From: Candidatus Nitrosopumilus sp. | GTDB taxonomy: Archaea > Thermoproteota > Nitrososphaeria > Nitrososphaerales > Nitrosopumilaceae | NCBI GenBank assembly: GCA_025699075.1 | Contig: JAILWG010000002.1 | Span: forward strand, 120,048 to 184,047 | Reading direction: 5' to 3' | DNA length: 64,000 bases | Shown: positions 5,899 through 46,629 of the stretch, piece by piece | Layout of the letters: each line of letters begins with the position of its first letter | How positions within the stretch are numbered: position 1 is the stretch's first letter | Position numbers and translations under genes: made by a program | Notes under the pieces: model-generated | Told to the model about the DNA's origin: nothing | The model's input: the letters and a program-made list of their open reading frames with translations, nothing else | Databases searched by the model: none

Positions 5899-5977
5899 GA
5901 TTTTCTTGATTTTTAATCAAATTTCTAGATTTTCTCTTGTCTCAAAGTTTAAATGGATTTTAACAAGGTAGGTTTCT

Positions 5978-6052
5978 GGGCTCATAGTCCAGGTCGGTTA
6001 TGACGTCGCCCTTACACGGCGAAGATCCGGGGTTCAAATCCCCGTGGGCCCA
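5978..6052 (+). tRNA. tRNA-Val (anticodon UAC), integration target
   Basis: Cloverleaf: GGGCTCA/TGGGCCC acceptor, TCGCC-CTTACAC-GGCGA anticodon arm, GGGG-TTCAAAT-CCCC T-arm. Confidence 0.93.
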
Positions 6053-6053
6053 T
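6037..6053 (+). repeat. attL core: 17-bp direct repeat AATCCCCGTGGGCCCAT
   Basis: Identical to 22521-22537; overlaps tRNA-Val 3' end. Confidence 0.9.
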
Positions 6054-6096: not shown

Positions 6097-7263
6097 ATGG
6101 AAATTTCCCTTGATAATGTCAAATCCAGATCTGATCCTTATCAAATATTCTTAGATTCTATTAGAAGCCCTGCAACACTTCGCAGATACAAGAATCTACT
6201 TTACGCCTTTCTCAAGCTTGTTCCAAACAAGTTCTACACTGAAGCCCTTGGCAAAACCCCTGAAAATCGAGAACCTGAAACATTGACTCGATTCTTTGTT
6301 GACTTGGCAAGAAAGGACATGGAACTATCTTCAAACATTATTGCTGAATTTATCAAACAAGACAAGAAGCGAGTAGAGTCTGGTGAGATTAGCTCGCAAA
6401 CTCTTCCAAACCACATCAAACCAATCAAGGCATTACTAGAGTCAAATGCAGTTCCAATCCATTGGAAATCTCTTAACAAACTTCTTCCACGAAGAGAAGC
6501 AAAATCAAAAGATAGGGCATACACTAAAGAAGAAATCCAAAAGATGCTCGAGGTATCAAACAACATTACCGACAAAGTTTTGATTTTGATGTTCTCGTCA
6601 GGTGGTTTCAGATTAGAAGCATGGGATTATTTTACATGGAAAGATGTAATCTTTTTCAAAAATAATGATGGGACATACAAGGGGGCTGCTTTGAGAATCT
6701 ATAGCGGAGATCCTGAAAGTTACTTTACGTTTATCACTCCAGAAGCTTGTAAAGCACTTGAGATTTATCGTGAAAATTGGAAAGCAGACATTGGAGAATA
6801 TCCAAAACCTGATGATCCTTTAATCAAGACAGTTGCATCACCTATGATTCGTAGACTTGCTCAGAAAGGAGTTCGAAAAAGAATCGACAAAGTTGTTACT
6901 GATATTGGTCTAAGGCCACCATTACCACCAGGAAAAAGAAGACATGAGGTGCAACTTGACCATGGATTTAGAAAATATTTCAATACAATGCTAAGACGTG
7001 CTAAGGTTGATTATCTGGATAAAGAAGACATGATGGGACACAAGGTAGGCTTGGAAAAGCACTATGAACGTTATCAAGAAGAAGACTTTGAGAGGTTTCC
7101 AGAATATCAAAAGGCAATACCACTTCTAACAATATCTGAAGAGGAAACAATCCGTCTAGAAAATGAACAACTACGTAAGGAAAAATCTGAACTTGAAGTG
7201 TACAAACAAAAAATTGACGAATTATGGGCAGATAAACAAAGAATGGAATCTAATCATAGCTAA
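6097..7263 (+). CDS. Tyrosine recombinase / archaeal integrase
   Basis: SGGFRLEAWDYFTW (Arg I), DHGFRKYFNTML (HxxR), MGHKVGLEKHYERY (catalytic Tyr); 45 bp from tRNA. Confidence 0.9.
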   Translation: MEISLDNVKSRSDPYQIFLDSIRSPATLRRYKNLLYAFLKLVPNKFYTEALGKTPENREPETLTRFFVDLARKDMELSSNIIAEFIKQDKKRVESGEISSQTLPNHIKPIKALLESNAVPIHWKSLNKLLPRREAKSKDRAYTKEEIQKMLEVSNNITDKVLILMFSSGGFRLEAWDYFTWKDVIFFKNNDGTYKGAALRIYSGDPESYFTFITPEACKALEIYRENWKADIGEYPKPDDPLIKTVASPMIRRLAQKGVRKRIDKVVTDIGLRPPLPPGKRRHEVQLDHGFRKYFNTMLRRAKVDYLDKEDMMGHKVGLEKHYERYQEEDFERFPEYQKAIPLLTISEEETIRLENEQLRKEKSELEVYKQKIDELWADKQRMESNHS

Positions 7264-8400: not shown

Positions 8401-8553
8401 TTGAGTAAGCAAATTTTCTCATGTTGTGAAAATCCATCAGAATTTCTAATTACGTACAGCGTTGCTGGAGAAACGAAAACGTATCAAGTATGTAATCATT
8501 GTAGTGATTTAGACTGTTTTAAGAGATTCGTAATAAAAAAATTAAAAATTTAG
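8401..8553 (+). CDS. Small zinc-binding protein (50 aa, TTG start)
   Basis: LSKQIFSCCENPSEFLITYSVAGETKTYQVCNHCSDLDCFKRFVIKKLKI; CC...CxxC pattern. Confidence 0.5.
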   Translation: MSKQIFSCCENPSEFLITYSVAGETKTYQVCNHCSDLDCFKRFVIKKLKI

Positions 8554-9515
8554 TGATTATCATGCAATCATTAATTCCATTTTTACGTCCTGCCTCTGAG
8601 CAAAGTAGTTCTACATTACAAAACGTAGCAGATTTTGTTTCAGAGTATAAGTTTCTTACAAATTGGATGAGTATAGACTATCAAGGATGGACACTTCCTG
8701 CAACACATGAACCACATGACTGGTGCGGTTTATGGAAGACCATAGGTTGTATTAATGCAGATAAACATGAGCAGTTGGGCAAAGGAAGGTTGGTATATAT
8801 CAAACAGTTTCGACGTTCATGCTACCGTGCAAAGTGTAAATCATGTTATACTAATTGGATTGCAAGACAAGCTAATGTATCTACTAGAAGAATAGAAGCT
8901 TATTTTGAAAAATCAAAACAAAGACCAATTCACTTGATACTGGCAGTTCCTGAAAACCAACGAGAGTTACCAGTAAAACTGCTACGTCAAAGGATGAGCC
9001 ATATCCTAAAACTTGGAAATATTAAAGGAGGTTCGGTTATCTTTCATCCATTTCGATTTAGTAAAGCTCAGCATAGATGGTATTCGTCTCCTCATTTTCA
9101 TCTTGTAGGATTTGGAAAATCTTCTGATATCAAGAATGCATTTGGAAGATATGGTTGGTATGTCAAAGAAGCTGGAGAAAGAGACTCAGTATTTCAAACA
9201 TTTTGTTACCTTCTATCTCATTGTGGAATCCAGAAAGGCTATCAGGCAGTCACCTGGTTTGGAAGTCTCTCTTATAGCAAATTGCATATTGAAAAAGAGC
9301 CTAGAATTACTAAATGTCCTCTTTGTAACGGAGAATTTGAGGAAATTTACTATGAAGATCTATTTCATCCTATAATACCGCCTGATAAGCACTATGAAGG
9401 ATTAGTAGATGAGATAGGATGGTACAGGGTGATGACTTTCGAGTATGAAGAACCAACTTTCGAGTATGCCTCAACTAGAGACTTGGATGAATTATTGAAA
9501 GGATTGGCAAATTAA
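8553..9515 (+). CDS. Putative HUH rolling-circle replication initiator (Rep)-like protein
   Basis: SPHFHLVGFG (HUH), downstream DSVFQTFCYLLSHCG (candidate catalytic Tyr motif), Cys clusters CYRAKCKSC and CPLC. Confidence 0.65.
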   Translation: MIIMQSLIPFLRPASEQSSSTLQNVADFVSEYKFLTNWMSIDYQGWTLPATHEPHDWCGLWKTIGCINADKHEQLGKGRLVYIKQFRRSCYRAKCKSCYTNWIARQANVSTRRIEAYFEKSKQRPIHLILAVPENQRELPVKLLRQRMSHILKLGNIKGGSVIFHPFRFSKAQHRWYSSPHFHLVGFGKSSDIKNAFGRYGWYVKEAGERDSVFQTFCYLLSHCGIQKGYQAVTWFGSLSYSKLHIEKEPRITKCPLCNGEFEEIYYEDLFHPIIPPDKHYEGLVDEIGWYRVMTFEYEEPTFEYASTRDLDELLKGLAN

Positions 9516-9657: not shown

Positions 9658-10872
9658 ATGTCAATTTTAATTCAGGAATCTAAACCTGTATCAATTGATT
9701 TTAAAGGCATGATGCCAGAGTTATCCAAACGACATAGGGCAACACACCATATTCATAAATATCCTGCAAAACTCATTCCTCACATTCCAAATTATTTAAT
9801 ACAAAAATATTCTCAAGAAAAGGACATTGTATTAGATCCATTTTGTGGTTCTGGAACAACTTTGTTAGAAGCAATACTTTGTAACAGAAATGCTTTAGGT
9901 GTAGAATTAAATCCTATAGGAAGATTAATCTCAAAAGTTAAAACGACACCATTAGATATTGAATCCGTAGAAGCAGCATCTAAAAAATGTTATAAAAAAA
10001 TCAAAACTTGTAATAAGTTCACTATTCCTGAATTTGAGAATCGAGATCTTTGGTTTACGAAAAAAACCCAAAACAATCTTGCAAAAATAAAATCAAGTAT
10101 TGAATCTCTTGACTTAGATCAAGACATTTTTGATTTTCTTATGGTTTCCCTATCTTCGATAATTTACAAAGTTTCAAATTCAGAACAAAGAGATCTTATG
10201 CCAAGATTATCAAAAAATCCTATTCAAGCAAACGTATTAAATGAATTTCTGAGACAATTAAATTTCAATATAGAACGTATAAAGACTTTACAATCAATTA
10301 AGACAAAATCGCAAATTATAGGAAACGATGCTGTAACTATTAATTCTAAAAGAAAAGCAAATTTGATAGTTACTTCTCCTCCATATCTTTCTGCTATGGC
10401 ATATTTTAGAACTACAAAATTAGAATACTATTGGTTAAATAATGGAAATGAAAAAAGTTACAAAAATTTTGCTAGAAAATCTATTCATGGTGAATTGTCA
10501 TCTGGAATACCAAAACAAATTCATCATACAGAAATTGAAGAAATTGATCATTTAATTTCTTCACTTTACAAAAAATCTAAACCATATGGTCTGAAAACTA
10601 GTTTGTATTTCGAACAAATGGAAAAAATCTTAGAAAAAATGCATAAAATCCTGTATGATGATGGTCATTTTGCCATGATTGTAGGGAATAGTAAAATTTT
10701 GGAAAAGCGAATTTTCCTAAATAGATTAATTCCTAAATTAGCTGAAAAGACTGGATTTGAATTCAAACTAGAATTACGTGATAGAATAAAGTTTCATAGA
10801 TTAGGAATAAAAAGATCTAATAAAACTAATAGGATTTATAACGAACATATTCTCCTATTTAAAAAATATTGA
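9658..10872 (+). CDS. DNA methyltransferase (N4-cytosine/N6-adenine type)
   Basis: VLDPFCGSGTTLLEA (motif I), GVELNPIG, LIVTSPPYLSAMAYFRTTKLEYYWL (motif IV). Confidence 0.88.
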   Translation: MSILIQESKPVSIDFKGMMPELSKRHRATHHIHKYPAKLIPHIPNYLIQKYSQEKDIVLDPFCGSGTTLLEAILCNRNALGVELNPIGRLISKVKTTPLDIESVEAASKKCYKKIKTCNKFTIPEFENRDLWFTKKTQNNLAKIKSSIESLDLDQDIFDFLMVSLSSIIYKVSNSEQRDLMPRLSKNPIQANVLNEFLRQLNFNIERIKTLQSIKTKSQIIGNDAVTINSKRKANLIVTSPPYLSAMAYFRTTKLEYYWLNNGNEKSYKNFARKSIHGELSSGIPKQIHHTEIEEIDHLISSLYKKSKPYGLKTSLYFEQMEKILEKMHKILYDDGHFAMIVGNSKILEKRIFLNRLIPKLAEKTGFEFKLELRDRIKFHRLGIKRSNKTNRIYNEHILLFKKY

Positions 10873-11837
10873 TGAAACTTGCTTTAGAAAATCTTCATGC
10901 TGAAAAAATTTCTGAATTAGAAACTTACGCTAAAGATAAAATTTCCATAAGAGGCAATCATCCAAAATATCGTGTTCCTGCAGACTTTGCTAATACAGAA
11001 TGGTTTCTTCCATTTAATGAAATTCCAATAAAATATTGTCCTACAGATAGGTATTCTTTTTTGAATAAATACCAAAGTTCAATTCCTAAAACTCAAACTT
11101 GGCCTATGCTGAAAGGCAATATCTTAGATGATATGTATGAACAATTTATAAATAATCTAATTTCTTATCTCAACTCTAAAGAATTAAGCACTGTAAATGT
11201 GTTGCATGATTTTGAAGAATTTGAATCTCAGATAATGACCAAAATTACTGAAAAAATTGATAACAAAAAAAATGATTTACTAATTAAACCTGAAGATAAT
11301 GAAATAGATGACTTTAAAAAATTAATTACGTCTGTAATTCATTTTGAAACTCAACTCGGAAGTGCACTAATTGATTATAAAATTTCTATGAATGATAGTC
11401 TGGAATTAAAAACTATGGTAACAATGCTTTTTCCATTTGTTTCAAAACCTACTTACACAATTACTTCTTTTGGAATAACAAATAGAGTTCAACCTGATTT
11501 TCTATTTGATAATAAAATCATAATTGATGTGAAATCCCCTCCTTGGATTGATGATTACTATGTTGCTTTAGGAGGTTATGCTTTAGTTTATGAAAAATCT
11601 AATGAACGTGAGATGAATTTAGGAATGATTGTCACTCCTGAGTATAATTCTACTCGTAAAGTTCCATTTTATTTTAATTCCGAAATCGTTCCAATTGAGG
11701 ATCGATACCGTAGAGAATTCCTTTTACGAAGGGATAAACTACTTGAACTAATTAAAAATAATCAAGACCCTGGTGTCCCAACTGACACACAGCCATGTAC
11801 CTCGTGTGCTTATTTTAATCACTGTTGTGGTTCTTAA
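10872..11837 (+). CDS. Cas4/Csa1-like PD-(D/E)XK nuclease with predicted 4-Cys Fe-S cluster
   Basis: N-terminal KYCPTDRYSFLNK Cys, QPDFLFDNKIIIDVKSPPW nuclease core, C-terminal CTSCAYFNHCC; ATG overlaps upstream TGA. Confidence 0.7.
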   Translation: MKLALENLHAEKISELETYAKDKISIRGNHPKYRVPADFANTEWFLPFNEIPIKYCPTDRYSFLNKYQSSIPKTQTWPMLKGNILDDMYEQFINNLISYLNSKELSTVNVLHDFEEFESQIMTKITEKIDNKKNDLLIKPEDNEIDDFKKLITSVIHFETQLGSALIDYKISMNDSLELKTMVTMLFPFVSKPTYTITSFGITNRVQPDFLFDNKIIIDVKSPPWIDDYYVALGGYALVYEKSNEREMNLGMIVTPEYNSTRKVPFYFNSEIVPIEDRYRREFLLRRDKLLELIKNNQDPGVPTDTQPCTSCAYFNHCCGS

Positions 11838-12661
11838 TGGAAAATACATTATTAGCGTTAAAAATTTCACCTAAAGATGTTCTCCCTCTTCTACAAATTA
11901 TTGAATCAAGTAAAACTCGGGATGAAATAGAAAAAAAAACTTTTGAATATTATAAAAAAAGTAGTAAAGATATTCATTCTCCACACATTAGCCCCTTTAG
12001 AGTTAGGGTAGCTCATTCTTTTAGAAAGCTTGGTTTGATTACTGGCGATAAACATGAAATTAAGTTAACCCCTGAAGCAAAATTTCTTCTTGAAAAATCT
12101 GAAAATTTGGATAAATTTAAAAAAGAATTTTCTAGGTTGATTCTTCATCTTGATCAAGAAAAAGTTAAACTAATCAATTTTTTAAAAAAAATTGATGGTT
12201 CATTCACTTATAATGATATTGTAGAAAATTTTGAAAAGGAAGGAATTACAATTAAAAAAACTGATGATAAATTACGAAGATGGTTACAATTCTTGTTCTA
12301 TTGTGATTTAATCTCGTTTAGTTCTCCATATTATGAAATAAATCTCATAACTCTTACTGCACTTGATACTGCAGTCAAAAAAGTATCCATTAAAGAATTT
12401 GAAAAAATTCTTTATGAAGAATATGAAATTTTAAAAAAGAACAAAGGCTCCTATGTACCAATACTTGATCTGACTCTCTCTGTTTCTAATAAATTAAAAC
12501 ACAAAGGATTTGCACCAATTGATTTTAAGGAACATCTATTGAAAACAATTTCATCTAAACCAAAAAAACAAATTACTCTTTCTGAGACAGGAGTTAGAAA
12601 AGAAGGCGGAATTATTCACAATAAAGTTTATTACTATTTTTTGTCCATTCATGAGAAATGA
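11837..12661 (+). CDS. wHTH-domain protein of the four-gene operon
   Basis: RVRVAHSFRKLGLITGDKHEIKLTPEAKFLLEKS winged-helix-like; TAATG overlap upstream, ATGA overlap downstream. Confidence 0.6.
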   Translation: MENTLLALKISPKDVLPLLQIIESSKTRDEIEKKTFEYYKKSSKDIHSPHISPFRVRVAHSFRKLGLITGDKHEIKLTPEAKFLLEKSENLDKFKKEFSRLILHLDQEKVKLINFLKKIDGSFTYNDIVENFEKEGITIKKTDDKLRRWLQFLFYCDLISFSSPYYEINLITLTALDTAVKKVSIKEFEKILYEEYEILKKNKGSYVPILDLTLSVSNKLKHKGFAPIDFKEHLLKTISSKPKKQITLSETGVRKEGGIIHNKVYYYFLSIHEK

Positions 12662-13749
12662 CTTCTGACGATTATAATCTCAAACATGGTCTTTTTGATG
12701 ATTTAGCGTATGAATACCCAATAATTGCTAGAAATGAACAATGGAAAATTCTTGAGGATTTCATCAATAAAGATTCCAAAGGAAGTAGAACTTTTCTAAT
12801 TGTTGGGGATTATGGTTGTGGAAAAACTCTTTTCCTTCAAAATGTAAAAAACAAATTTCGAGATGGCGAATTTGCAAATTCTGAAAAAAGTTTAGTTATT
12901 TCTATGCGTGTAATCGAAGGTGAGCCTGAATCAAAAATTGGTTTATCTTTTGTAACTCGTGCATTCCAAAAAATAGGATATGGAAAAATTACTCAGATAG
13001 CAAAAAAAGTATCCTCTTTAGATGAACGATTATTTGATTCAAATTTTCAAAAAATCATTCAAGCTTTACAAAATCAAGAACGAGAAGCATATGATTGGTT
13101 ATGTGGTGTTGCTTTAACTGAAAAAACAAGAAGAATCTTTGGAATTCAAAAAAATCTCTCAACTAGTAATGAAGCATTATCTGTATTCTTTAATTTTTTA
13201 AAATTATGTAAGCAAGCAGAAATTGAAAATGTCTATTTATTAATAGATGAATTTGAATATGTTGTAACAAGTTATTCTCAAAAACAGGTTGATGCACTTC
13301 TTTATCTTTTCAAAGATATCTATGACAAATATGGTGAAGAACAAGATACTATGGCCAAAACAATTTTCATTATTGCTATGACTCCTGGCTGTTGGGATTT
13401 TCTTCTAAATATGGAAGATAGAAGAACTGGAGGTGGTGGAGCAATACCTTGGAAAGAAAGAGTAAATCCTAATATCAATCAAATTCAGTTATTACGCTTT
13501 AATGAAAATGAGACAGAAGATTTACTTATTCAAAGAATTAAGATGAATAGGATAAAACATTCCGACAAACTCCCTCATGACACTTGGCCTTTTGTTCGTC
13601 CTGAATTTTTCTCCATTATCTATGAAAAAGGCGAAGGAATTCCACGTAAATGTCTAAAGTATTGTGATCATGTTTTTGATTGTGGTATTGAAGATAATGT
13701 TGATGAATTTGATGGAGAATATACTAAAAAAATTCTTGATAAAATTTAA
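12658..13749 (+). CDS. P-loop AAA-type ATPase (BrxC/BrxD/DUF2791-like flavour)
   Basis: FLIVGDYGCGKTLFLQ Walker A; NVYLLIDEFEYV Walker B; IFIIAMTPGCWDF. Confidence 0.8.
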   Translation: MTSDDYNLKHGLFDDLAYEYPIIARNEQWKILEDFINKDSKGSRTFLIVGDYGCGKTLFLQNVKNKFRDGEFANSEKSLVISMRVIEGEPESKIGLSFVTRAFQKIGYGKITQIAKKVSSLDERLFDSNFQKIIQALQNQEREAYDWLCGVALTEKTRRIFGIQKNLSTSNEALSVFFNFLKLCKQAEIENVYLLIDEFEYVVTSYSQKQVDALLYLFKDIYDKYGEEQDTMAKTIFIIAMTPGCWDFLLNMEDRRTGGGGAIPWKERVNPNINQIQLLRFNENETEDLLIQRIKMNRIKHSDKLPHDTWPFVRPEFFSIIYEKGEGIPRKCLKYCDHVFDCGIEDNVDEFDGEYTKKILDKI

Positions 13750-17785: not shown

Positions 17786-18751
17786 ATGGGTTGTAGTCAC
17801 AACTATGTTTTTACTCAAGGGTATTTTGTTTGTACTAAATGTGGTAAACGCTCCTATGGAAGATCATATAAGAAAAAACAAGGAAAGAAAATTGCAGCAG
17901 GAGTTACTGTTAGTTTAATACTGATTATTGGATTTTTTGCATACTCTAATGGAATATTTGAAATTAATCCAGCAAAATTAGATGAAACACTTCAAAGCAT
18001 TCCAAAAGATCTTCCTACCCTTACTAAAAATCTTCCATCAATTCCATTTCAAGTCTCTGAACCAATAAACAAAATTGTAGATTCTTCTGTAAATGAAATT
18101 AATAAAATTGAAGAAAAAATTCAAGAGGCAAGTATGCCAGTAGAATCATCAGAAAAGTATGCAGTAGAATCTATTGAATACATTAATGAAAAAAGAATAC
18201 AAAATGGAAAAAATCCCATTATTCATGATTCTAGAGTCTATGAATTAGCTATGGCAAGGGCAAAAGACATGTACGAATATCAGTATCTTGATCACACAAA
18301 TCCGATTACAGGAACATGTCCATATAATATGAAATCAAGTTTTGGATTAAAATCTAATGAAAATGTTGCAGAAAATGCATATCTATTTGGAACTGAAACT
18401 AATCCAACCCTTTACAATCCTTCTTACACTGAAATAATTAATGGTTGGATGCAGAGTACAGGTCATAGAATGAATTTGCTTAGCTATGAACATGTTGGAG
18501 GTTCTGTTGCATGTTATGGTGGTTTTTGTGTTTTCTTGGGATTGAATCATGGACTGTATGGTGAAGGATGTTATACTGCATCAGAAGGACAAGCATATGC
18601 ATCGAGATTTGATAATTGTACTCCTGAACAAATGAGACAATATGAAAAACTGCAACAAGATTATGACAAGATTCCATCTGTTGTTAATTCTCAAACAGAA
18701 TATCATAGAGCTATGGAGATGTATAATCAATTAGAAAATTTTAGGTGTTGA
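17786..18751 (+). CDS. Zinc-ribbon + TM + CAP/SCP domain protein
   Basis: CSHNYVFTQGYFVCTKCGKR; INEKRIQNGKNPIIHDSRVYELAMARAKDMYEYQYLDHTNP; NVAENAY; GWMQSTGHRMNLLS. Confidence 0.82.
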   Translation: MGCSHNYVFTQGYFVCTKCGKRSYGRSYKKKQGKKIAAGVTVSLILIIGFFAYSNGIFEINPAKLDETLQSIPKDLPTLTKNLPSIPFQVSEPINKIVDSSVNEINKIEEKIQEASMPVESSEKYAVESIEYINEKRIQNGKNPIIHDSRVYELAMARAKDMYEYQYLDHTNPITGTCPYNMKSSFGLKSNENVAENAYLFGTETNPTLYNPSYTEIINGWMQSTGHRMNLLSYEHVGGSVACYGGFCVFLGLNHGLYGEGCYTASEGQAYASRFDNCTPEQMRQYEKLQQDYDKIPSVVNSQTEYHRAMEMYNQLENFRC

Positions 18752-19776
18752 TTTTGCTAAGACCCTATCTTATAGAAATTCGCTTGATGGGAGAAACAAA
18801 AAATCTCACTAAAAAACTCATTTATGATATTTTTCATAAATTCCGTGTTAAAGGCCAGGTAAGAAAAAAACCTGTTCCACATGTTACCTTATTTGGTCCA
18901 TTTGCATGCAAGAATATTCGTCAAGTAATACATGCTATAGGTGAGGTTGGATCACAATACTCTGAATTACCGTATGAAATTAACGGATTTGATTACTTTG
19001 AATTAAAGAAAAAATTTCTATTCATTACAACATCAACAAAGAAAAATGTAGTTTATCTGAAAATAGTTCCAAGTGATGATCTAAAAGACTTTAGACATGA
19101 ATTGGCAAAAAAATTACTAAAATTTACAGATGCAGTAAATACATCTCATGATTCACGAGACAAATTCAAATTCCATGCAACTATTGCAATGAAAGACATT
19201 CATCACAAATTTGATGAGATATGGGAGTATCTCAAAAATTATGATATCAAAACTAAAGGAATGTGTTATCGAATCACACTTCTCAATCAAGGTAAAATTA
19301 TGTATGAATATGACATGCCCACAAAAAGACTACTAAATCGTAAACAAGCTCTAGGACGAAGACCAAGAGAAAGAACCAGTGAAAATTATCGTACTAGCCA
19401 AAGCCAAACTGAAGAAAATCGTTCTAGACGGAGTCATTTTAGACAAGATAGAACTAGGAAAAATTACCGTAGACAAGAGAGTTCTAGACAAGATCGTACT
19501 CAACAAAATAGAAGACAAGACAGAACAGGAGGAAATAATCAAACTAAACAAAATACTCGTGAGAGAAGTACATCTACTTTACACGACTGCTATAGCATTT
19601 TAGAAATAAGTGAAAACTCTACGTCTGCTGAGATTCATAGCTCTTACAGACGTCTATCTCTCTTATGGCATCCAGACAAACACATTGACTCTACAAGAAA
19701 AAAAATTGCAGAAGAACAAATGAAATTAATCAATAATGCAAAAAAAACATTAGAAAGTATGGGTAAATGGGATTAA
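18745..19776 (+). CDS. 2H phosphoesterase (LigT/CPDase-like) fused through an Arg/Gln-rich linker to a C-terminal J-domain
   Basis: HVTLFGPF and HATIAMK (two HxT motifs); RQDRT-repeat linker; DCYSILEISENSTSAEIHSSYRRLSLLWHPDKH (HPD). Confidence 0.8.
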   Translation: MLILLRPYLIEIRLMGETKNLTKKLIYDIFHKFRVKGQVRKKPVPHVTLFGPFACKNIRQVIHAIGEVGSQYSELPYEINGFDYFELKKKFLFITTSTKKNVVYLKIVPSDDLKDFRHELAKKLLKFTDAVNTSHDSRDKFKFHATIAMKDIHHKFDEIWEYLKNYDIKTKGMCYRITLLNQGKIMYEYDMPTKRLLNRKQALGRRPRERTSENYRTSQSQTEENRSRRSHFRQDRTRKNYRRQESSRQDRTQQNRRQDRTGGNNQTKQNTRERSTSTLHDCYSILEISENSTSAEIHSSYRRLSLLWHPDKHIDSTRKKIAEEQMKLINNAKKTLESMGKWD

Positions 19777-20717
19777 AGATTGTGGGATTAGAAATGAGCA
19801 CAATTAGAAATGAGATGGAGAGGTTCTTTCAAAAGACCAACATGGTTAGTACATACAAACCAATGTTCCTGAAGGCTCTCTTGGATTTGGGTGACTTTAA
19901 AGAGAATGAAGGTAGTCAATGGGTAAAAGATGATGGAAAAAATCTAGAAGTAGATTTGAATTTTGTAGCAGTTCGATTCATTTACTATTGTCATCCCCTA
20001 TATTTTAAATTCAAACTAAAACAGCAATTTGGAATTATGACCGTTCTAAGTTACAAGATTTTTGAAGAGTTTGATGTATTCAATGCAAAAAATAAGGTTT
20101 CCAAAGTAGAATTCTCAAAGGACAAATACAAAGATGCAAGAGACAGGCTTATCAAAGATGGAATTGATAAAACAGTTTTCAAATTATTGTTAAAGGATTG
20201 TAATATTTACACTAGAACAAAAAAATACACTTTCAAAATCTCTAAAGAAAATGTATCTTATCTTAAAGAACACAAGAATCAACTTACAAAAGCATTGAAC
20301 CATGAACTGTCTTTATTTTTAGGAAGATTCAACAATTCTCCTGACATTCCAGGAAAACTGGAGGAAATCAAGAAACGACCCTCTCTTAACAAGGAAGACT
20401 CTTTAGAAAACATTAGACTGGCAAAGAATAGATGTTTTTATTGTGATGAAAAAGGAACAGAGTTTGCTCAAGATCACTTTATTCCTTGGAACTATGTCTA
20501 TACAACTGAAAAATATAACATGGTTCCCGCATGTACCTCATGTAATTCCTCAAAGCATGACAAGCTTGCAACTCATCAATTTCTAGACAAAATTATTCAG
20601 AGAAATAAGAAACTACAACTTTCACTAGCCTACTCTAAATCCTTTATGAAAAGTCAATGGGAGAACTGTCGAATTAATTATCATGGAGAAGATGAATCAT
20701 TGTGGAAAAATGCTTGA
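19767..20717 (+). CDS. HNH endonuclease
   Basis: NRCFYCDEKGTEFAQDHFIPWNYVYTTEKYNMVPACTSCNSSKHDK. Confidence 0.87.
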   Translation: MGLKIVGLEMSTIRNEMERFFQKTNMVSTYKPMFLKALLDLGDFKENEGSQWVKDDGKNLEVDLNFVAVRFIYYCHPLYFKFKLKQQFGIMTVLSYKIFEEFDVFNAKNKVSKVEFSKDKYKDARDRLIKDGIDKTVFKLLLKDCNIYTRTKKYTFKISKENVSYLKEHKNQLTKALNHELSLFLGRFNNSPDIPGKLEEIKKRPSLNKEDSLENIRLAKNRCFYCDEKGTEFAQDHFIPWNYVYTTEKYNMVPACTSCNSSKHDKLATHQFLDKIIQRNKKLQLSLAYSKSFMKSQWENCRINYHGEDESLWKNA

Positions 20718-22520: not shown

Positions 22521-22537
22521 AATCCCCGTGGGCCCAT
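22521..22537 (+). repeat. attR core: 17-bp direct repeat of tRNA-Val 3' end
   Basis: AATCCCCGTGGGCCCAT identical to 6037-6053. Confidence 0.9.
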
Positions 22538-44649: not shown

Positions 44650-46629
44650 TTATTGTCCACAGTTACAATTTGGTCCACACATACATGGTCCGGCTTCGCC
44701 AGAACAAATACATGCACCCTCTTGATCACATGAACATCCTTCTGCACACTGGCAGGTTTCATCGGTACCACAGTTACAATTTGGTCCACACATACATGGT
44801 CCGGCTTCGCCAGAACATGTGCACACTCCTTCTGCATCACAATTACAATCTACTGCACAATCACACATTGCACCATGAGATCTCTTCTCTTGAACTGATA
44901 TTGACTCACTACCTCCCATTGTTACAATGGAATAGGTGATGCCAAATGGTTCAGTGCTAAATGTATGAGCTGCTAATGCATTACCTGTAAACATCCATGT
45001 TCCCATCTTGTTTTTTTGGTCAACAAGTGTTAGTGCAAACTTTGTCTTACCATCTGGAGTCCAGATAGTCTGTCCCATAACTTGATCTTCTGTTAATGGT
45101 CCGTGGAGTGCAACTAGTTGAACATTTTCAGATGCTGAATATGTAAGCATTCCTTTGTACATTTTCTCTGAAGGTGCTAGTAATACTGCAAGTTGGTGTA
45201 GTTCATGACCTTGTCCTGGATCAGTCTCTGACTGAATTACTCCAGTAACTGATTTCATCTCATATCCGCTCATTCTGTAATGATGTCCATACATGTTACC
45301 GCATGAACATACTCCATCACAGTGTTTCATATGTCCATAACTAGTTCCTGAACAATTACATCCTGCACCACATGAGCATTGACCGGATTCACCACATGAG
45401 CAAGTGTCACTATCACAAGTGCATCCTGCACCACATGAGCAAGTTCCATCCTCACTGCAGTTACATTTTGTGCCATCAGATCCATACTTCATAGAATCTC
45501 CACAGTTACAATTTGGTCCACACATACATGGTCCGGCTTCGCCAGAACAAATACATGCACCCTCTTGATCACATGAACATCCTTCTGCACAATCACAACT
45601 TCCATACATTGCATGTCCATCAGATACTTGTGCATAATGAAGTGAATATGACATTGAAAATGGTTCAGTGCTAAATGTATGAGCTGCTAATGCATTACCT
45701 GTAAACATCCATGTTCCCATCTTGTTTTTTTGGTCAACAAGTGTTAGTGCAAACTTTGTCTTACCATCTGGAGTCCAGATAGTCTGTCCCATAACTTGAT
45801 CTTCTGTTAATGGTCCGTGGAGTGCAACTAGTTGAACATTTTCAGATGCTGAATATGTAAGCATTCCTTTGTACATTTTCTCTGAAGGTGCTAGTAATAC
45901 TGCAAGTTGGTGTAGTTCATGACCTTGTCCTGGATCAGTCTCTGACTGAATTACTCCAGTAACTGATTTCATCTCATATCCGCTCATTCTGTAATGATGT
46001 CCATACATGTTACCGCATGAACATACTCCATCACAGTGTTTCATATGTCCATAACTAGTTCCTGAACAATTACATCCTGCACCACATGAGCATTGACCGG
46101 ATTCACCACATGAGCAAGTGTCACTATCACAAGTGCATCCTGCACCACATGAGCAAGTTCCATCCTCACTGCAGTTACATTTTGTGCCATCAGATCCATA
46201 CTTCATAGAATCTCCACAGTTACAATTTGGTCCACACATACATGGTCCGGCTTCGCCAGAACAAGTGCATGCACCTGCATCACAATTACAATCTTCTGCA
46301 CAATTACAAACCTCTCCTTGAGATCTTTTCTCTTGAACAGTTTCGGGAGGTAATGGCATTCCCTTTTGTTCGAGACCATAGCGAGGAATTACAATGTCGG
46401 CAGGAGTTTGTCCTGCTTCCCATGCTTCTTTTCCTCCCGGAATGTCTGAACATAATCTATCTCCACACACAGTTCCTTTTGTAGTGGAACCAAATGATTT
46501 AGTAGAAACACCTTGTCCCTTCATTGCGTCTGCATATTGAACTGAAGATGATGCAACTATTGCACCTGTCAATAGAATTGTAGTGGCAAATAGTACCGCT
46601 AGGGCTGTTAATTTCATTGTATAAGACAC
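44650..46629 (-). CDS. Secreted Cys-rich protein with duplicated CHRD-like domains and metallothionein-like CxC arrays
   Basis: Signal peptide; GPCMCGPNCNCG and CSCGAGCTCDSDTCSCGESG arrays; ASENVQLVALHGPLTEDQ... Confidence 0.8.
   Translation of the reverse strand: MSYTMKLTALAVLFATTILLTGAIVASSSVQYADAMKGQGVSTKSFGSTTKGTVCGDRLCSDIPGGKEAWEAGQTPADIVIPRYGLEQKGMPLPPETVQEKRSQGEVCNCAEDCNCDAGACTCSGEAGPCMCGPNCNCGDSMKYGSDGTKCNCSEDGTCSCGAGCTCDSDTCSCGESGQCSCGAGCNCSGTSYGHMKHCDGVCSCGNMYGHHYRMSGYEMKSVTGVIQSETDPGQGHELHQLAVLLAPSEKMYKGMLTYSASENVQLVALHGPLTEDQVMGQTIWTPDGKTKFALTLVDQKNKMGTWMFTGNALAAHTFSTEPFSMSYSLHYAQVSDGHAMYGSCDCAEGCSCDQEGACICSGEAGPCMCGPNCNCGDSMKYGSDGTKCNCSEDGTCSCGAGCTCDSDTCSCGESGQCSCGAGCNCSGTSYGHMKHCDGVCSCGNMYGHHYRMSGYEMKSVTGVIQSETDPGQGHELHQLAVLLAPSEKMYKGMLTYSASENVQLVALHGPLTEDQVMGQTIWTPDGKTKFALTLVDQKNKMGTWMFTGNALAAHTFSTEPFGITYSIVTMGGSESISVQEKRSHGAMCDCAVDCNCDAEGVCTCSGEAGPCMCGPNCNCGTDETCQCAEGCSCDQEGACICSGEAGPCMCGPNCNCGQ
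44945..45550 (-). repeat. 606-bp direct repeat, copy 1 (period 714 bp)
   Basis: Appears identical to 45659-46264 by eye; encodes ~202 identical aa. Confidence 0.9.
45659..46264 (-). repeat. 606-bp direct repeat, copy 2
   Basis: See 44945-45550. Confidence 0.9.

Follow-up and report, generated by a model that had tools for sequence, protein, structure and literature searches.

The question raised by this locus is what function is served by a Cas4-family nuclease encoded in one operon with a DNA methyltransferase, a winged helix-turn-helix (wHTH) protein and an ATPase. The four genes lie at positions 9,658 to 13,749 of a 64,000-nucleotide stretch of a Candidatus Nitrosopumilus sp. assembly (GCA_025699075.1, contig JAILWG010000002.1, positions 120,048 to 184,047 of the forward strand), referred to here as the window. 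They probably constitute a mobile, ATP-dependent restriction-modification (R-M) cassette that is related to the bacteriophage exclusion (BREX) and Dpd systems and uses the Cas4-family nuclease as its cutter. Published work is cited here from excerpts of the papers concerned.

Organization of the four-gene cassette

The first-pass annotation, made from the letters of the window, had described four overlapping genes on one strand, and this arrangement is borne out by direct reading of the sequence. All four appear in the same orientation in the list of open reading frames (ORFs) of the window:

9658..10872, + strand: DNA amino-methyltransferase, 404 aa (PF01555, MTase_II, phrog_18146)
~9835-9861, + strand: methyltransferase motif I, DPFCGSGTT
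~10372-10386, + strand: methyltransferase motif IV, TSPPY
10872..11837, + strand: Cas4/Csa1-family Fe-S nuclease (PF06023)
~11037-11039, + strand: nuclease Cys57
~11493-11534, + strand: nuclease PD...DVK core
~11796-11825, + strand: nuclease CxxC-x5-C
11837..12661, + strand: predicted tandem winged-helix DNA-recognition protein, 274 aa (AlphaFold model, Foldseek)
12658..13749, + strand: BrxD-like AAA+ ATPase (PF10923, PADLOC BrxD)
~12805-12828, + strand: ATPase Walker A, GDYGCGKT
~13237-13251, + strand: ATPase Walker B, LLIDE

The methyltransferase stop codon (TGA, 10870-10872) overlaps the nuclease ATG at 10872 as TGATG, the nuclease stop codon (TAA, 11835-11837) overlaps the wHTH ATG at 11837 as TAATG, and the wHTH stop codon (TGA, 12659-12661) overlaps the ATPase ATG at 12658 as ATGA. 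The ATG codons at 10872 and 11837 are the preferred starts, the mechanically called TTG codons at 10869 and 11825 being less likely. All of the motifs named in the first-pass annotation for the first, second and fourth genes were located in their ORFs, including the nuclease stretches KYCPTDRY, QPDFLFDNKIIIDVKS and CTSCAYFNHCC. By gene content and overlaps, a DNA methyltransferase and an endonuclease thus share one operon, as in an R-M system.

The methyltransferase matches PF01555 (N6_N4_Mtase; E = 1.5e-21) in two stretches, the best of which aligns the final part of the profile with the N-terminal region of the protein, and also matches PADLOC MTase_II (2.9e-47) and phrog_18146 (6.4e-59). 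Its TSPPY motif suggests N4-cytosine methylation. A PADLOC scan matched no system to the set as a whole and recognized only a generic MTase_II, a Cas4 and a weak BrxD; NCBIfam likewise recognizes parts only, in line with the earlier proposal of an uncatalogued system. Membership in a known PADLOC or NCBIfam system was rejected on the grounds that only individual parts were matched.

The Csa1-type nuclease

The second gene product was correctly recognized at first pass as a Cas4/Csa1-type Fe-S nuclease. It matches PF06023 (Csa1) over residues 42-320 with an E-value of 2.7e-25 and a score of 89.8 bits (cut-off 27), and it retains the catalytic residues D210, D220 and K222 and the Fe-S ligands C57, C310, C313 and C319 (numbered from the TTG at 10869). 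In alignment, the PD, D-x-K and cysteine positions are common to this protein and the CRISPR-associated Csa1 (Cas4a) proteins, which share its family, its PD-D-x-K core and its four cysteines. The cassette nucleases differ from these in having Asp or Glu for the usual GxxxH histidine in most members, in lacking Cas1 and Cas2 neighbors, and in their phylogenetic position: in a maximum-likelihood tree all eight system nucleases fall on one side of a branch with 100/98 support and 28 other Csa1 proteins on the opposite side. In the six comparison loci that were closely read (L011, L021, L036, L037, L039 and L041), Csa1 was found by inspection beside Cas1 in every case. Cas1 was undetected in the host genome, which is 85% complete. 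The earlier placement of this nuclease outside a CRISPR context is upheld by that result together with the separate clade, and on the same two grounds an origin as a CRISPR adaptation module was rejected.

The winged-helix protein and the ATPase

The third gene product matched no Pfam family. Its AlphaFold model (predicted local distance difference test, pLDDT, 85.7) contains repeated helix-strand-strand units that are read as tandem winged helices. Ranks 1-9 of a Foldseek search of the PDB with this model are all restriction or nicking endonucleases (the BpuJI recognition domain and Nt.BspD6I), with a best E-value of 5.2e-4 and FokI at rank 42; in a viral library, a FokI-like protein is at rank 2. 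The winged-helix call made at first pass thus stands, now in tandem form according to the model, and the likeness to restriction-enzyme recognition domains could not be seen from the letters. From its predicted fold, the protein resembles the DNA-recognition module of a restriction enzyme more than a plain regulator.

The ATPase matches PF10923 (BrxC_BrxD) above its cut-off, with an E-value of 1.8e-10, and PADLOC BrxD was matched in 4 of 6 member ATPases; against NCBIfam BrxD the protein scored far under the cut-off. Sequence searches of solved structures gave no significant match for either the nuclease or the ATPase, the nearest chains for the latter, among them DnaI, ClpE and Cdc6/ORC, matching weakly. 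BrxA has been described as having a FokI/BpuJI-like tandem wHTH architecture and BrxD as an ORC-Cdc6 AAA+ ATPase (PMC12839542), and by analogy the cassette ATPase may be of the ORC-Cdc6 type.

These similarities bear on an alternative in which the cassette is a BREX-related defence whose complex stops unmethylated DNA from being replicated or packaged, with the nuclease as an auxiliary end-processing effector. Both the ATPase matches to BrxD and PF10923 and the predicted FokI/BpuJI-like tandem wHTH, an architecture also described for BrxA (PMC12839542), favor it, as does the state of two nuclease copies, one of them broken and another devoid of Fe-S ligands. This alternative is nonetheless unlikely: PglZ (PF08665) is absent from the 85% complete host genome, none was seen on inspecting the loci of the relatives, and neither BrxB nor BrxL was seen. 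A nuclease with the PD-D/E-x-K residues is present in all eight loci, which argues for its being the main effector.

Relatives of the cassette and of its core

The co-conservation of the four genes, posed at first pass as a check, is found in both archaea and bacteria. The nuclease, wHTH and ATPase genes occur in identical order in seven other genomes (eight with the window), and therefore by more than chance; in every member these genes overlap or lie no more than 7 bases apart. The carriers of this core belong to the Thermoproteota and to three bacterial lineages (Chloroflexota, Actinobacteria and an unclassified bacterium). Of the 6 loci with a readable flank, 5 have a DNA methyltransferase next to the core, and at least two methyltransferase types are represented, relatives of the window enzyme being found in L033, L050 and L062. 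Among the Bathyarchaeota, L062 has the order methyltransferase-nuclease-wHTH-ATPase, and in L033 and L047 the methyltransferase gene is convergent with the nuclease-wHTH-ATPase core. The reading frame of the L062 nuclease is open upstream of its listed start. The unclassified bacterium (L050) carries all four genes, with a mod-like methylase on one side and a Type III res gene on the other, and the contigs of the Dehalococcoidia and Actinobacteria loci (L048 and L049) start within the nuclease gene. A second archaeon of the window's genus (L034) also carries the cassette, and this copy, together with the gene content of the host, points to a marine Nitrosopumilus-type ammonia oxidizer. In a survey of 397 sampled genomes of the phylum at E <= 1e-12, only five had an ATPase match; the three strongest, including that of the window, have the nuclease adjoining, and the remaining two are loci with TGT genes. 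No relatives of the nuclease or the ATPase were found in plasmid and phage collections, and alignments of the ATPase and the wHTH protein recovered none from IMG/VR.

The TGT loci belong to a set of archaeal loci that resemble the Dpd systems for 7-deazaguanine DNA modification and carry wHTH-ATPase pairs homologous to that of the window (hhalign E 7.9e-11 and 3e-39). Such pairs adjoin TGT/DpdA genes in three loci (L051, L065 and L066); L051 and L066 also have preQ0 genes, and L066 a PLD nuclease. L080 has two TGT-like genes, a PLD nuclease and a wHTH protein related to that of L065, and in L054 a DpdA-like gene has a PLD-type protein as its neighbor. The ATPase of L051 matches PADLOC DpdH in the Walker region only (E 0.052). 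The loci L051, L054, L065, L066 and L080 apparently form a sister system of the window cassette, which differs from them in having a methyltransferase in place of TGT/DpdA and preQ0 synthesis and a Csa1 in place of a PLD nuclease; no TGT/DpdA or preQ0 genes were recognized among the ORFs of the element that carries the cassette. Given the company of TGT/DpdA, preQ0 and PLD genes, the wHTH-ATPase pair follows DNA-modification enzymes, and because it occurs in both kinds of locus, the modification enzyme and the nuclease are interchangeable parts of a common engine's surroundings. Of the arguments that the pair serves the discrimination of self from non-self by DNA modification, this modularity is the strongest. 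A variant lies on a separate contig, L055 (1-6330), where a methyltransferase, a HerA-like ATPase, a PLD protein and a BrxD-like ATPase are encoded together.

The distribution of the core also addresses the possibility that a solitary methyltransferase merely lies next to an unrelated DNA-repair operon composed of a Cas4-like nuclease, a wHTH protein and a helicase-loader-like ATPase. The replication proteins DnaI and Cdc6/ORC among the weak structural matches of the ATPase would suit such an operon, as would the one readable flank that lacks a methyltransferase (L063). We regard this as very improbable, as the methyltransferase adjoins 5 of the 6 testable loci in at least two types, the wHTH-ATPase pair sits also with another DNA-modification pathway, and a distribution this patchy (5 of the 397 genomes sampled from the phylum) is unlike that of a repair pathway.

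The carrier element and the casposon copy

The cassette of the window is carried on a mobile element, of which the following features were identified:

6037..6053, + strand: attL, 3' end of a tRNA-Val gene (5977-6053), 17-nt exact repeat
6097..7263, + strand: tyrosine integrase of the element (phrog_1, 3.4e-9; PF00589, 0.001, below cut-off)
22521..22537, + strand: attR, exact 17-nt copy, AATCCCCGTGGGCCCAT

From the 17-nt repeats at 6037 and 22521 and the integrase at 6097, it follows that the four genes lie inside a 16.5-kb integrated element. A joined-flank search for an empty site recovered the tRNA-Val half in most relatives, the right flank being too diverged for that site to be recognized cleanly.

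Casposons are Cas1-bearing transposons that are thought to be ancestral to CRISPR adaptation. In L034 the cassette has a DNA polymerase B gene on one side and a Cas1 gene on the other and lies next to elongation factor 2, and the published site of the casposons NitNF5-C1 and NitNF5-C2 of Nitrosopumilus adriaticus is the same (PMC6563490); L034 is likely the N. adriaticus strain in which these casposons were described. Two Cas4 homologues were reported in NitNF5-C2 and proposed as a possible aid to casposon integration (PMC6563490). In L034 (7391-8391), two successive ORFs match the Csa1 profile at positions 19-88 and 114-290, and because these are the first and last parts of the profile, the ORFs look like halves of one frameshifted gene. 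The two reported homologues may thus be one broken gene. The casposon methyltransferase shares 72% identity with its counterpart in L052, a locus in which the wHTH-ATPase pair is remote, and methyltransferases have therefore been exchanged within the methylation branch as well.

Both copies in the window's genus are on integrated elements, which, with the integration role suggested for the NitNF5-C2 Cas4 (PMC6563490), raises the alternative that the cassette maintains its element through addiction, inter-element exclusion or help with integration, and does not defend the host. The window cassette, however, sits on a tyrosine-integrase element without Cas1, and relatives occur in bacteria and Bathyarchaeia, which speaks against a function that depends on casposon integration. 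If rival elements were excluded by restriction, the biochemistry would in any case be the same. Element maintenance as the sole function is considered quite unlikely.

Proposed mechanism and relation to known systems

In the restriction-modification mechanism that we favor, the methyltransferase would mark the DNA of the carrier element and its host, probably as N4-methylcytosine or N6-methyladenine at a site of its own. The tandem winged-helix protein would read DNA; its simplest role would be that of specificity subunit for the restriction arm, comparable to the BpuJI and FokI recognition domains or to BrxA, and its fold match suggests that it may steer the nuclease to the site. The BrxD-like ATPase would assemble on the reader in a complex and gate or remodel DNA, and the Csa1-type nuclease would then degrade unmarked DNA in an ATP-gated manner, which may protect the cell against viruses and plasmids.

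Several observations weigh against this mechanism. The members number only eight and come mostly from metagenome assemblies, and L063 (Bathyarchaeota) has the nuclease-wHTH-ATPase core with no methyltransferase on its 7.5-kb contig. The nuclease of the casposon copy is broken by a frameshift, that of L062 (2759-3650) keeps PD-ELK without the Fe-S cysteines, and 3 of the 4 full-length members aligned have Asp or Glu where CRISPR Csa1 proteins usually have the GxxxH histidine. The fold matches of the wHTH protein have low TM-scores (~0.4) and root-mean-square deviations of 7-8 Å. The AlphaFold model of the nuclease is poor (pLDDT 50.5) and its best PDB match, Cas4 8d3l, is not significant (E 0.51); for this reason the PD-(D/E)XK fold expected at first pass is assigned by homology, from the family match and the conserved catalytic residues.

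The first-pass annotation had found no standard layout for these genes. While no catalogued system matches the set, the cassette lies nearer to BREX and Dpd than that statement implies, because the third protein resembles a recognition module and the ATPase is BrxD-like. With BREX (Type 2, which has BrxD, and Types 1 and 3, which have BrxA) it has in common an amino-methyltransferase, a BrxD-like AAA+ ATPase and, according to the model, a tandem wHTH protein of the FokI/BpuJI recognition fold. It differs in the absence of PglZ from its host genome, in showing no BrxB, BrxL or BrxHI/HII, in its added Cas4/Csa1 nuclease, in having only four genes, and in a methyltransferase of 404 aa as opposed to the large PglX type. 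BREX membership was rejected because no PglZ was found in the 85% complete host genome. Type IIS and IIT R-M enzymes (BpuJI, FokI, R.BspD6I) likewise combine this recognition-module fold with a DNA methyltransferase partner and a nuclease cutter, but the cassette splits recognition, cleavage and ATPase over separate proteins, and Type IIS enzymes have no ATPase. The UvrD-Cas4-like fusions found by Type III R-M or Dcm genes (PMC5704561) also place a Cas4-type nuclease in a methyltransferase context; their nuclease is of family pfam12705 and is joined to a superfamily 1 helicase, whereas the cassette has an AAA+ ATPase and a wHTH protein.

The excerpts of that phylogenomic study (PMC5704561) term non-CRISPR Cas4-family nucleases uncharacterized defence or anti-defence factors and do not describe Csa1 with the present gene set. 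In their excerpts, a 2026 BREX survey (PMC12839542) and a phosphorothioate reappraisal (PMC10853773) make no mention of Cas4, and a 2026 survey of archaeal immunity (PMC12988326) names it only within a reference title. The cassette is undescribed in the open-licence literature searched, and an earlier description elsewhere is possible.

Other features of the window

The gene upstream of the cassette on the same element encodes a further candidate protein:

8553..9515, + strand: possible HUH-type replication protein, motif HFHLVGFG (sequence inspection only)

This protein matched no Pfam family; it has cysteine pairs in addition to the HUH-like motif and may be a rolling-circle replication protein of the element. 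Also on the element, 18745-19776 encodes a protein in which a 2'-5' RNA ligase/phosphoesterase domain is predicted to be fused to a DnaJ domain, and an HNH gene (19767-20717) follows next. At 44650-46629 is a secreted-type protein with repeated cysteine-rich blocks (CSCGAGCTCDSDTC...) in two near-identical halves.

Implications

The cassette, though rare, is inherited as a unit. It provides a defined context in which cutting in a methylation-guarded system most likely falls to a non-CRISPR Cas4-family nuclease, and its wHTH-ATPase pair connects BREX-type and Dpd-type machinery. With a chance somewhat short of even, these loci may represent a separate class of immune system, in which one wHTH-AAA+ engine is combined with interchangeable marks (methylation or 7-deazaguanine) and nucleases (Cas4/Csa1 or PLD); its Csa1 branch, which even a casposon carries, would be a case of a Cas4-family nuclease acting as an effector outside CRISPR. 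An alternative reading is thereby offered for the Cas4 homologues reported in the Nitrosopumilus casposon, and the ammonia-oxidizing archaea gain a concrete defence candidate.

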